A stretch of 64,000 nucleotides of DNA from Psychrobacter okhotskensis (GTDB taxonomy: Bacteria; Pseudomonadota; Gammaproteobacteria; Pseudomonadales; Moraxellaceae). The stretch spans positions 1-64,000 of the forward strand of contig NZ_JABRVQ010000006.1 in assembly GCF_013248965.1 (NCBI RefSeq), written 5' to 3'. Position 1 is the first letter of the stretch, and every line of letters begins with the position of its first letter. This document shows, in pieces, positions 6,935-10,606 of this stretch. The translations under genes and the position numbers were made by a program. The notes under the pieces are model-generated. The model saw nothing but the letters and a program-made list of their open reading frames with translations. It was not told where the DNA came from and did no database searches.

Positions 6935-7697
6935 GCGCCTATTATCCAAACGCTTATGGCGCTATTATTTGCGGTCAGCGGAACGTATGGTGAAGCTGTT
7001 TCGTATCATTAACATCACCTTTTTGCTCGGCTCAACGTCTGTTATTTTAGTGCTAATTAGCTTATTCACCCCGCTATTCTCGCAAGTAATCGTTTATATA
7101 TTTGCGCTGTTGCCATTACCTAGCATGCCATCGGCTGCCAAAAGCTCTCCTCCTACTGCCTATGTGGTGCTAGGTGGTGGCCTAACCAACGATCACAATA
7201 ACCAAATCATCCTCAATAGCTATAGTCTTAATCGCGCCCGTACCGCTGCTACTGCCTATCATGATTTACCGCTGCCTATTGTGCTCAGCGGTGCCGAAGC
7301 GCCGTGGCTCGGTCAATGGCTCATTGAGCATGGCATTGATGGATTGATAAGCGAAAACGCTAGCATGAATACCTGCGAAAATGCCCGCTTTACCGCTAAG
7401 CGCATTCCACTACGTCACGTGTACCTTATTACCGACAGCTATCATATGGCACGGGCGCGTAGACAATTTGCTTTAAATGGTATCAATAGCACGCCTATTG
7501 ATGCGCCATTGCCCGTCAGGCGTGATTGGATAAAACCAGCACAAAACTTGAGCCATTCACGGCGCGCCGTCTATGAAGTCGCCGCCTATTTGCGTGATGT
7601 GATACGTCCGCAGATGGACTGCCGCCATGCCAATGATGTCACTTCACAGCAGCTATTGACCCCCAGAGGAAACGCAGCAAAAACGCCTGTGCAATAA
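6894..7697 (+). CDS. DUF218 (YdcF/ElyC/SanA-type) membrane protein
   Basis: A 267-aa protein with a hydrophobic N-terminal anchor region (about residues 37-80) and a DUF218 domain. Visible motifs are YVVLGGGLTND, LSGAEA, SMNTCENARFTAK and LITDSYHMARAR. Family members such as ElyC and SanA are inner-membrane proteins tied to envelope integrity and vancomycin resistance, which suits its place after murB. The start is uncertain: ATG codons at 6894, 6915, 6918 and 6924 overlap the murB end, and 6987 would avoid the overlap. Translational coupling to murB is likely. Confidence 0.8.
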   Translation: MQMALLGMMSMWSKRLLSKRLWRYYLRSAERMVKLFRIINITFLLGSTSVILVLISLFTPLFSQVIVYIFALLPLPSMPSAAKSSPPTAYVVLGGGLTNDHNNQIILNSYSLNRARTAATAYHDLPLPIVLSGAEAPWLGQWLIEHGIDGLISENASMNTCENARFTAKRIPLRHVYLITDSYHMARARRQFALNGINSTPIDAPLPVRRDWIKPAQNLSHSRRAVYEVAAYLRDVIRPQMDCRHANDVTSQQLLTPRGNAAKTPVQ

Positions 7698-7904
7698 TGT
7701 TATAGTCAGTGAAAAGTAATGTCGAACCATCATGCATTGCGTTTTTAGGATATTTTGACTATAGCAATAAGTTTCAGCCGTCATTAACCTCTGCACCTGC
7801 CATTTTCTAATCATTCGCTATATTACTTTTACCTCTACAAGTCGTCCATCACCCTGATGACAAGTGTATAATAACGTCAGAAACTGCTATAAAAGAGATT
7901 TGCC

Positions 7905-8195
7905 ATGCTCAGTATATTTTTATTAATTCCATTAAGTCTCATGCTGTTTGTGGTTGCCATTTGGGCAGTACGTTATGCGGTTAAATCAAACCAATTTGAA
8001 GATTTAGACAACGCTTCACAGCGTATTATATTAGATGATCGTCAAGAACGTCGGCAAACCATGCAGGCTCACGAGCAATCAGCAGCAAGTACACAGACTA
8101 ACTCTACTATCGCGACGGATACTGCTAATAATGACAAATTAGCAAATAGGGAAAATCCCATCGATAATGATATTGATGACAACCTCAAACCATAG
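7905..8195 (+). CDS. ccoS: CcoS, cbb3-type cytochrome oxidase assembly protein
   Basis: A 96-aa protein with one N-terminal membrane helix (about residues 3-24) followed by YAVKSNQFEDLDNASQRIL, the conserved CcoS signature. The rest is a polar, Asn/Asp-rich tail longer than in most CcoS proteins. CcoS is needed for haem and copper insertion into cbb3 oxidase. The oxidase genes ccoNOQP and ccoGHI are not in this window. The next gene is a TauE/SafE-like protein, an association also known beside ccoS in Pseudomonas. A TATAAT at 7867-7872 may be its -10 box. Confidence 0.85.
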   Translation: MLSIFLLIPLSLMLFVVAIWAVRYAVKSNQFEDLDNASQRIILDDRQERRQTMQAHEQSAASTQTNSTIATDTANNDKLANRENPIDNDIDDNLKP

Positions 8196-8328
8196 CTTTA
8201 AATCATCTTACCTGTGCGCCCTACTGTTGATGTTTTTGTCAGTAATCAAACTATATTGCTGACCCGCTATATTAAAGACCAATTATAAAAGTAGGCGCGC
8301 CTTTTGCTATTTTTAGGAGAATTGACCC

Positions 8329-9294
8329 ATGACCACTGCTTTACTTGTTGCGGCATTACTAATGGGATTTTTTGGTTCACCACATTGCTTGGGTATGTGC
8401 GGGGGGCTGGTAACAGCGTTTGGTCTGTCGATGAAAGACGTTAGTCCCGCTAAACGCCGCGCCCTTGTGGCGACTTACCACTTAGGGCGTCTTAGCAGCT
8501 ATGCGCTGTTGGGTTTAGTCGCAGGTTTGATTGGTACGACTGTTTTAGAACCCTTGATGCGAGGCAATAATATGCCGCGTATCTTATTAGGTTTGGTATT
8601 GGTGTTTGTTGGTGTGACCATGCTTGGTGCGCCATTTTTGAGCAAGCTTGAGCGCTATGGCATGCGTTTTTGGCAGTATCTCAGTCCCCTTCGTCAAAAA
8701 GTTTTTCCTTTAAACACCTTTCCACGAGCATTGTCAGCGGGTCTATTGTGGGGATTTTTGCCTTGTGGTTTGGTTTATGGCGCTCTACTGATTGCAGTGG
8801 TTGCCCACAACCCATTAAGCGGCGCGGCATTAATGTTCGTCTTTGGCCTGGGTACAGTGCCGATGCTGGTTGCCACGCACGAGACCGTTGGCTGGCTACG
8901 CAACAAAATTGGACGCTTTCGTCTGCGTCAGATGAATGGGGCACTGATGGTCGTGTCAGGTATGGCGATCATTGTCGTCCCATTAGTAATGGCAAATATG
9001 CATAGTGGGCATGATATGTCCACTATGCATAGCGATCATATGCAGATGAGTGATTCGCAAATGATGGATATGCCCATGCATGGAACGATGGATGGATCGA
9101 TGAATAACAGCAGCCATTCTGCGACGACTACTGATACAGATACCCATGACCATCATGATATGAGTCAAATGAATCATGACATGACACCTGCTATGGCTGA
9201 TACAATGGATCACAGTATGCATGATATGAACAATAAGAGTAGCGAAGCAGACATGAAAAACAATCAGGATGCTATGATAGAAAATGCTGAATAA
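8329..9294 (+). CDS. TauE/SafE (UreH-like) membrane protein with Met/His-rich C-terminal tail
   Basis: A 321-aa inner-membrane protein. The first roughly 220 residues form about six hydrophobic helices, with FFGSPHCLGMCGG near the N-terminus and LLWGFLPCGLVYGALL in the middle, both typical of the UreH-like/TauE group. The last 100 residues are a soluble tail crowded with Met, His and Asp (HSGHDMSTMHSDHMQM and similar), which looks like a copper or other soft-metal binding segment. AGGAG precedes the ATG. Beside ccoS it probably helps copper handling for cbb3 oxidase. Transport of sulfite is not implied. Confidence 0.8.
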   Translation: MTTALLVAALLMGFFGSPHCLGMCGGLVTAFGLSMKDVSPAKRRALVATYHLGRLSSYALLGLVAGLIGTTVLEPLMRGNNMPRILLGLVLVFVGVTMLGAPFLSKLERYGMRFWQYLSPLRQKVFPLNTFPRALSAGLLWGFLPCGLVYGALLIAVVAHNPLSGAALMFVFGLGTVPMLVATHETVGWLRNKIGRFRLRQMNGALMVVSGMAIIVVPLVMANMHSGHDMSTMHSDHMQMSDSQMMDMPMHGTMDGSMNNSSHSATTTDTDTHDHHDMSQMNHDMTPAMADTMDHSMHDMNNKSSEADMKNNQDAMIENAE

Positions 9295-9328
9295 AAAATC
9301 AAAGCGCTAGGGCATGTCTTAATCAGAA

Positions 9329-9366
9329 AAAAGCCCTTAACATCAATCAGGATGTTAAGGGCTTTT
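9329..9366. terminator. Bidirectional terminator between the TauE-like gene and the DEAD-box helicase gene
   Basis: A perfect 16-bp stem (left arm 9329-9344, right arm 9351-9366, core GCCCTTAACATC) with a 6-nt loop has A-runs on the left and T-runs on the right. It can therefore end transcription from both convergent genes. Confidence 0.9.
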
Positions 9367-9409
9367 CTATTAATCCGAAATTATTAAGACAAAGTCCAAA
9401 TTAGACCAG

Positions 9410-10606
9410 TTATTCCTGCCATTGCTCAAGCGTAAACTTGGTATCTAAATGCTTCTCTAACGCAGGGATATTAAAAGCATCATCTTCACTAACGAAGCTA
9501 ATACTGATACCAGTCTGTCCAGCGCGGCCCGTACGACCAATGCGATGTACGTAATCATCTGGCTGATCAGGCAAAGTATAATTGACCACGTGGCTGATAT
9601 CATCGACATGAATACCGCGCCCTGCGACATCGGTGGCAACCAAGATAGAAGCGTGACCATCTTTAAAACGCTGTAAGTATTTTTCGCGTTTTTGCTGAAT
9701 GACATCGCCTGACAACATCACAATTTTATGTCCTTGGCGCAGTTTGTGATAGAGACGCTTGACTTGATCTTTGCGATTGGCAAAAACAATCACTTTATCG
9801 ACAGCGCTATCACTAATAATACGCTGCAATGCCGCTAGTTTTTGATCTTCTGTCAATAAATAAAAGTGCTGATCGACCAACTCACTGGTTTTATGCTCAG
9901 GCTCAATTTCAACAAATTGCGGCTCATGTAACCAACGATAGGCCAAGTTCATCACATCTTGGTTAAAAGTGGCTGAGAATAACAAGCTTTGGCGATCGGT
10001 GTTCGAAGGCATCCGACCAACCAAGCGCTTGATATCCGGAATAAAACCCATATCCAGCATGCGATCTGCTTCATCTAGTACCAGCACTTCTACTCGATCC
10101 AGATAGACCATGCCCCTATTGGCAAGATCAATCAGACGACCGGGCGTCGCTACTAAGATATCGACATATTGACGCTCAAGCTCATGCTGCTGGGTCTCAT
10201 AATTGGTGCCACCCATAATACAAACGCTGTGCAGCGAAGTGTATTTGGTCAAAGCGATACAATCATCAAATATTTGCTGTGCAAGCTCGCGGGTTGGTGC
10301 CATAACCACTGCGCGCGGCTCACCTAGATAGCGCTCTTCATCACTGGTAAAAGGACGCTTGAGTAATGCCTCCATAATGGTCAACAAAAACGTTGCCGTC
10401 TTACCGGTGCCAGTTTGTGCCTGTCCGATAGCGTCTTGATTTGCCAAGGTATGCGGTAATATTTGTGCTTGGATAGGCGTCAGTTCAGTAAAACCTAAAT
10501 CACTTACCGCGCGCAAGGTCGGTGTAGAGAGTGGTAAATCAGTAAACGCTGTAAAATTACTCAAAAAATCATCCTTTTGTATGAATCGCTTGTATTTTTC
10601 AATCAA
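9410..10606 (-). CDS. rhlB: DEAD-box RNA helicase, RhlB-like
   Basis: A 398-aa ATP-dependent RNA helicase with all DEAD-box motifs in order: Q motif (GFTELTPIQAQ), motif I AQTGTGKT, PTRELAQQ, TPGRLID, VLDEADRM, SATF, then VATDVAGRGI and HRIGRTGRAG. It lacks a long RNA-binding tail, and the length fits Pseudomonas-type RhlB, a degradosome helicase. The exact paralogue (RhlB or another short DEAD-box protein) is less sure than the family. A cold-shock protein gene lies upstream on the same strand, which suits RNA remodelling at low temperature. Confidence 0.85.
   Translation of the reverse strand: MIEKYKRFIQKDDFLSNFTAFTDLPLSTPTLRAVSDLGFTELTPIQAQILPHTLANQDAIGQAQTGTGKTATFLLTIMEALLKRPFTSDEERYLGEPRAVVMAPTRELAQQIFDDCIALTKYTSLHSVCIMGGTNYETQQHELERQYVDILVATPGRLIDLANRGMVYLDRVEVLVLDEADRMLDMGFIPDIKRLVGRMPSNTDRQSLLFSATFNQDVMNLAYRWLHEPQFVEIEPEHKTSELVDQHFYLLTEDQKLAALQRIISDSAVDKVIVFANRKDQVKRLYHKLRQGHKIVMLSGDVIQQKREKYLQRFKDGHASILVATDVAGRGIHVDDISHVVNYTLPDQPDDYVHRIGRTGRAGQTGISISFVSEDDAFNIPALEKHLDTKFTLEQWQE

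Follow-up and report, generated by a model that had tools for sequence, protein, structure and literature searches.

A DsbD_2 membrane protein with a Met/His-rich tail beside ccoS in Psychrobacter, and its probable part in cbb3 oxidase assembly

We analyzed a stretch of 64,000 nucleotides from Psychrobacter okhotskensis, referred to below as the window, in which a gene for a tailed membrane protein directly follows ccoS. The identity of the upstream gene is given by two profiles, PF03597 (55.2 bits against a cut-off of 23.1) and TIGR00847 (40 bits against 28.35). The PF03597-type match stops at residue 45 of 96, and about 50 extra polar residues lie on the C-terminal side of the FixS domain. 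The downstream gene had been described in an earlier note on this DNA as UreH/TauE-like. The profile search gave DsbD_2 (PF13386) instead, with an E value of 4.5e-48 and 164.2 bits against a gathering cut-off of 24.9; the match covers residues 8-212 of the protein and positions 1-198 of the 199 in the profile, and TauE/SafE is not among the five Pfam families found at E values up to 1. The best identity of the core to named Psychrobacter contigs is 90-91%. Plasmid searches returned no match, and PADLOC returned none. The features of the locus are collected in the table.

Table 1. Genes, motifs and other features of the ccoS-DsbD_2 locus, in window coordinates.
Feature	Position	Strand	Description or basis
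ccoS (FixS), cbb3 oxidase maturation protein, 96 aa	7905..8195	+	PF03597, TIGR00847
DsbD_2 membrane protein with Met/His-rich tail	8329..9294	+	321 aa, ATG start; PF13386 match
Six-helix membrane core, residues 1-223	8329..8997	+	AlphaFold2 model and positive-inside topology
H19-C20-x-x-M23-C24-G motif, TM1	8383..8403	+	Invariant residues in alignments
LPCG motif with C146, TM4	8758..8769	+	C146 invariant; aligned with second cysteine of DsbD_TM
Met/His/Asp-rich tail, residues 224-321, predicted periplasmic and disordered	8998..9291	+	Composition, pLDDT, Met/His retention
Terminator-like strong hairpin 3' of DsbD_2 stop codon	9329..9366	+	Folding

The hairpin that follows the DsbD_2 gene has a folding energy of -24 kcal/mol (z -8.1), and none of 200 shuffled sequences was equally stable. 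It is absent from the output of a terminator pattern scan of positions 7600-9500. The scan of that region gave 10 promoter-like sites (5.3 in shuffles, s.d. 2.6) and three terminator-like sites (2.1 in shuffles, s.d. 1.9); we set these sites aside as evidence. At up to two mismatches the window contains 85 matches to the FNR box, above every one of 100 shuffles (mean 51.75), and it contains no exact box. One such match, with two mismatches, falls between ccoS and the DsbD_2 gene (8236-8249) and was considered too weak for use.

Hydropathy indicates six helices in the DsbD_2 protein, and an AlphaFold2 model constructed with 55 alignment rows is good throughout the core (mean pLDDT 74-96 per ten-residue block). 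Residues H19, C20, M23 and C24 of helix 1 and C146 of helix 4 are invariant in 24/24 and in 55/55 alignment rows. Comparison of the core profile with the DsbD transmembrane domain (DsbD_TM, PF02683) gave an hhalign probability of 95.9 and an E value of 5.6e-9 over 182 columns, with C146 aligned to a DsbD_TM cysteine and C20 and C24 outside the aligned block. Several members of the genus exceed the PF02683 cut-off of 27.1 bits, with scores of up to 35.9, and the window protein itself reaches 26.2; it also shows a weak match to CcdA (2n4x, E 0.043). Judged from the sequence, the three cysteines together with the histidine and the methionine would suit a Cu(I) site, and two of the cysteines would suit a disulfide relay. 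In a structural comparison the top matches were RnfA/NqrE subunits (Z 8.2 and 7.9, 4.5-5.7 Å over 131-144 residues), and the range ends of this match hinted at corresponding cysteines. We make no use of this resemblance to the Rnf/Nqr D/E family (PF02508), since hhalign gave a probability of only 0.4 over 40 columns and such Z values are common among helical bundles. A Foldseek search gave no match at E ≤ 0.001.

The remaining 98 residues (224-321) include 20 Met, 12 His, 15 Asp and 2 Lys, and no Arg. That this region is unusually rich in Met and His, as the earlier note had remarked, is confirmed by a ranking of all ATG-started ORFs in the window that reach 200 aa (39, counting this one): its richest 98-residue stretch has a Met+His fraction of 0.34, about threefold that of any other ORF in the set, the next-best having 0.12. 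The mean pLDDT per block drops to 41-53 past residue 230, from which the tail is expected to be disordered. Counting Lys and Arg together, the three odd loops hold 12.0 residues on average, compared with 0.5 for the N-terminus plus even loops and 0.6 for the tail, and the odd loops exceed the even loops plus tail in 55/55 rows. This distribution indicates an N-out/C-out topology, in which the tail is predicted to be periplasmic.

To describe the evolution of the tail we used 62 genus orthologs among those fetched, or 59 once identical ones were dropped, with paralogs left out. Tails in this set are 49-133 residues long and have Met+His fractions of 0.22-0.47 (mean 0.35). Mean pairwise identity among the 59 distinct orthologs is 0.46 for the tail and 0.86 for the core, and dN/dS in 132 close pairs is approximately 0.21 and 0.03, respectively. 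Residue retention in the tail is highest for Met (0.82) and His (0.81), followed by Asp (0.68), Gly (0.61), Ser (0.58), Glu (0.44), Ala (0.39), Asn (0.38) and Thr (0.27); these values come from a slightly wider set of overlapping pairs, with no control, and from an aligner that favors common residues. The tail looks like a composition under selection rather than a fixed sequence. The earlier note had made its reading depend on the tail being conserved in close relatives, and it is kept in both genus and family, with His- or His/Met-rich tails in 20/20 loci from other genera of the family; tails of genus, family and wider loci were scored by eye. Similar tails are found in separate lineages (Cellvibrio L185, Cellvibrionaceae L220, Microbulbifer L224 and Halioglobus L222), and a long tail is absent from Pseudomonas L214, Marinobacter L210, Thalassotalea L199 and Oceanisphaera L200. 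Because several relatives within cbb3 clusters lack a long tail, it is dispensable for the role of the core.

The association with ccoS is consistent. In all 35 genus genomes that bear the DsbD_2 gene (this genome and 34 of 35 relatives), ccoS is located directly upstream, and the only genus relative without a DsbD_2 match, G014, is 83% complete. The usual order in Psychrobacter is murB, DUF218, ccoS and DsbD_2, followed by a DEAD-box helicase on the opposite strand. Elsewhere in the family, ccoS adjoins the DsbD_2 gene in 20/20 loci, fetched out of 55 other-genus genomes with a match, and a P-type ATPase is a neighbor in some of them only. At the level of the order, 16 genomes have a match, and loci were fetched from 15 of them; every one of the 15 has ccoG, ccoH or ccoI no more than about 5 kb away, and ccoS was detected in 14/15. 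In the genome that contains the window, ccoN is on contig C19, with neighbors that we interpret, by eye, as ccoO, ccoP, ccoG and ccoH; ccoI, with its PF12156 domain, is on C2, and the ccoS-DsbD_2 pair is on C6. These three locations, together with the clustering with ccoG, ccoH or ccoI in other Pseudomonadales, agree with the suggestion of the earlier note that the two genes are a separated maturation module, and gene order supports the view that they are a detached part of the cco maturation cluster. The tail is independent of this split, because loci L111, L119, L128 and L130 keep ccoH, ccoI and ccoS adjacent yet bear His/Met tails.

Several other features of these loci are recorded here in their own right. 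In L145 (contig C12 of G222, a Psychrobacter genome in which ccoN is present), the DsbD_2 gene beside ccoS is split over two frames and is either broken or misassembled. The CcoI of the window's genome (L140:4988-7861, minus strand, on C2) is encoded by an open frame of 958 aa, compared with 781-853 aa in order-level relatives, and this P-type ATPase has a polar stretch rich in Ala, Gln, Thr and Asn ahead of its actuator domain.

A link to cbb3 oxidase presupposes that the genome has one, and ccoN on C19 provides it. We also carried out the co-occurrence check that had been proposed. Among 57 relatives, DsbD_2 is present in 51 and ccoN, scored as above the TIGR00780 cut-off, in 52. The sole discordant genome (G048, order level) has ccoN and no DsbD_2; its contig ends about 0.4 kb past ccoI, and the missing genes may lie beyond this assembly break. 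Among 199 genomes of the family, both genes are found in 119, DsbD_2 only in two, ccoN only in three and neither in 75, and completeness is 59-86% in the five discordant genomes. The family count used ccoN at E ≤ 0.001, which includes 122 genomes; 120 of these are above the TIGR00780 cut-off, and the other two (G085 and G114) hold fragments. One genome of genus g31 (G106) has neither gene, and the remaining g31 genomes listed have both.

A phylum sample of 199 genomes, 144 of them above the TIGR00780 cut-off for ccoN, extended this comparison, with counts transcribed by eye from lists. Within the class of the window, Gammaproteobacteria, a strong DsbD_2 match (E < 1e-20, a threshold set after the list was seen) is present in 47/48 genomes with ccoN, the exception being G392, versus 0/23 other genomes. 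Sixteen of those 23 have weaker PF13386 matches (E 5e-4 to 4e-15), which we take to be DsbD-type proteins. Outside the class, strong matches are present in 48/96 genomes with ccoN and absent in 48/96, and one genome (G395) has a strong match but no ccoN above the cut-off. Genomes and ortholog pairs are not independent, so that p-values for this sample and for the Sco comparison below overstate. A strong DsbD_2 match nearly always accompanies cbb3 oxidase, and cbb3 oxidase can occur without the DsbD_2 gene.

Genes in this position have been noted before. According to a passage in PMC3899249, SO2357 of Shewanella, annotated as the disulfide bond oxidoreductase dsbD, lies downstream of ccoS and is 77% similar to VC1435 of Vibrio cholerae; the same passage, citing earlier work, states that VC1435 occupies the same position and is required for cbb3 assembly. 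Part of PMC10158934 describes ccoGHIS in green sulfur bacteria together with a further conserved gene, a putative tauE, and a section of PMC4938975 assigns DsbD_2 proteins with HMA domains to an inferred CsoR copper regulon. In Campylobacter, ccoI and ccoS mutants lost cbb3 activity and were partially rescued by copper, as stated in a portion of PMC8267372, and CcoA and Sco are treated in a section of the review PMC7558416. A term search showed that the words DsbD and TauE are absent from the main text of a copper/cbb3 paper and a review. In the literature searched we found no description of the tail. The core protein is thus of an already known kind, and the tail is what is new.

Together, these observations make it reasonably probable, in our view, that the window protein is a fifth cbb3 assembly protein of the cco cluster, of the VC1435/SO2357 kind, whose tail collects periplasmic copper and whose core hands copper or electrons toward CcoN. 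Family, genomic context, co-occurrence and the constraint on composition are observed, the topology is predicted, and the requirement in V. cholerae is taken from the literature; we infer the copper ligand and the hand-over. The disordered His/Met tail would collect copper ions in the periplasm and raise the local concentration of copper at the membrane. The Cys/Met/His site of the core may then take over or reduce the copper gathered by the tail, and the copper would reach CcoN (CuB) alongside the products of ccoI, ccoG and ccoS. Copper binding by the tail is plausible from its composition, and the core would carry either copper or electrons; His-rich tails would equally suit nickel or zinc. 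The earlier note had proposed copper storage or delivery for cbb3 oxidase. The connection to cbb3 is favored by the ccoS context, the co-occurrence and the example of VC1435, but storage in the manner of the Csp proteins is less likely: Csp copper storage proteins have a Cys-rich copper site, and none of the 59 distinct ortholog tails contains Cys. Knowledge of the copper route to CuB in cbb3 oxidases is still incomplete, and the ccoGHIS picture seemingly omits this fifth protein.

The possible alternative to which we give the most weight, though still a doubtful one, is that the core acts like CcdA or DsbD, with electrons from the cytoplasm passing through C20/C24 and C146 into the periplasm, where they would keep copper or the cysteine of a chaperone reduced; the tail would then serve to buffer copper or be little more than decoration. 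Such a thiol-redox conduit would account for the homology to the DsbD_TM profile, the PF02683 scores within the genus, the weak CcdA match and the invariant cysteines in helices 1 and 4, and it agrees with the annotation of SO2357 as dsbD in the passage of PMC3899249 cited above. However, the third invariant cysteine and the invariant His and Met are more like a metal site, the helix-1 cysteines fall outside the hhalign block, and a full DsbD-type gene (an open frame of 742 aa) is already present in the genome. In addition, the obvious acceptor, Sco, is without a strong match in most of the Psychrobacter genomes searched.

The distribution of Sco also bears on the tail. With our own threshold of E < 1e-10, a strong Sco match is present in 6/35 genus genomes versus 18/19 order-level genomes; two others of the genus (G023 and G032) have short matches barely above the cut-off. 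In the genome of the window (G000), which has cbb3 oxidase, the best SCO1-SenC match is 20.9 bits, below the cut-off of 22.8. The tail could stand in place of Sco. Within the genus, tails did not differ between five genomes with Sco and 29 others (p 0.77 for length, 0.42 for Met+His count and 0.11 for Met+His fraction), a comparison that left out G014, where no DsbD_2 was found, and G035, which was outside the Sco search. In one genome (G051), Sco and a long tail are both missing. Sco serves CuA oxidases too, and its absence may reflect the loss of such an oxidase.

Some genomes include a further DsbD_2 gene, found at 13 loci in eleven genomes or records (L033:4611-5513, L034:4574-5443, L035, L036, L037, L131-L137 and L159); ccoS was not detected within the fetched stretches. 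The genome of the window lacks such a copy. Tails of these paralogs consist of pentapeptide (QMNHE)n repeats, with up to 14 exact MNHEQ units that differ at synonymous sites; the count left out variants such as MNHDQ, INHEQ, MSHEQ and MDHG. The local genomic context includes a TonB-dependent receptor in 7/13 loci, a PepSY_TM protein in 6/13 and a DUF2946-like gene in 13/13, with a DUF2946 match below the cut-off (17.7 versus 23.7). The L033 receptor scores below the cut-off of two substrate models, at 161.7 bits against 472.45 for copper and 163.8 against 316.85 for hemin, so that neither model assigns it a substrate. End branches in the paralog tree measure 0-0.004 among the six receptor-type copies it includes and 0.013-0.03 among its six PepSY-type copies, and many forks lack resolution. 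Because the receptor-type copies of G034 and G205 are near-identical while their ccoS-linked genes (L012 and L099) are well apart, the sequences suggest recent transfer of the receptor-type paralog. Contig C24 of G205 carries both kinds of paralog (L131 and L132), about 33 kb apart, and G025 has a partial third DsbD_2 copy on C29.

A broader hypothesis, which we regard as unlikely, would join these elements: tailed DsbD_2 proteins would be Cu(I) collectors and inner-membrane copper carriers for cbb3 oxidase, analogous to Met-rich importers, with the tail performing the chaperone task of Sco in Moraxellaceae and the QMNHE paralogs being the same device in TonB copper-acquisition islands. Still less probable is a periplasmic metal defense, in which the tail mainly sequesters excess copper, silver or zinc and the ccoS neighborhood is incidental. 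The mobile-looking islands that hold the QMNHE-repeat paralog would fit this, as would the resemblance of the tail to the Met/His repeats carried by copper resistance proteins of the CopA/CopB type, but the tight co-occurrence with cbb3 oxidase and the position after ccoS are unexpected for a general resistance gene. We give as little credence to a functionless, neutral low-complexity tail arising from ATG/CAT/GAT slippage, even with its 20 ATG, 12 GAT and 11 CAT codons, the 15-base repeats of the paralog tails and the wide range in tail length, since dN/dS is 0.21, Met and His are retained above other residues, both His codons are in use, the composition is held across tails of GC 0.40-0.68, and His/Met tails recur in the 20 loci from other genera of the family.

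For the preferred reading, an assembly protein that gathers copper for cbb3 oxidase, a natural long tail of metal ligands in a group where strong Sco matches are mostly absent offers a direct handle on the role of copper. Among known systems, VC1435 and SO2357 are the closest in context, both following ccoS and bearing a DsbD-type annotation; this likeness is one of position and annotation. The tail recalls the N-terminus of CTR1, the repeats of CopA and CopB, and SilE, all of which place short Met/His repeats with Asp or Ser outside the cytoplasm and bind copper. Unlike those segments, it is a C-terminal extension of a DsbD_2 core associated with cbb3 assembly. CcoA (CalT), as described in part of PMC7558416, is likewise an inner-membrane protein tied to the copper supply of cbb3 oxidase, but it belongs to the MFS transporters, its M-x3-M and H-x3-M motifs lying in TM7/8, and we claim no kinship in sequence. 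CcdA and the DsbD transmembrane domain are related to the core by profile homology over 182 columns, with the helix-4 cysteine aligned; the window protein differs from them in its additional invariant Cys24, His19 and Met23, in its His/Met tail, and in its location among genes for cbb3 assembly.
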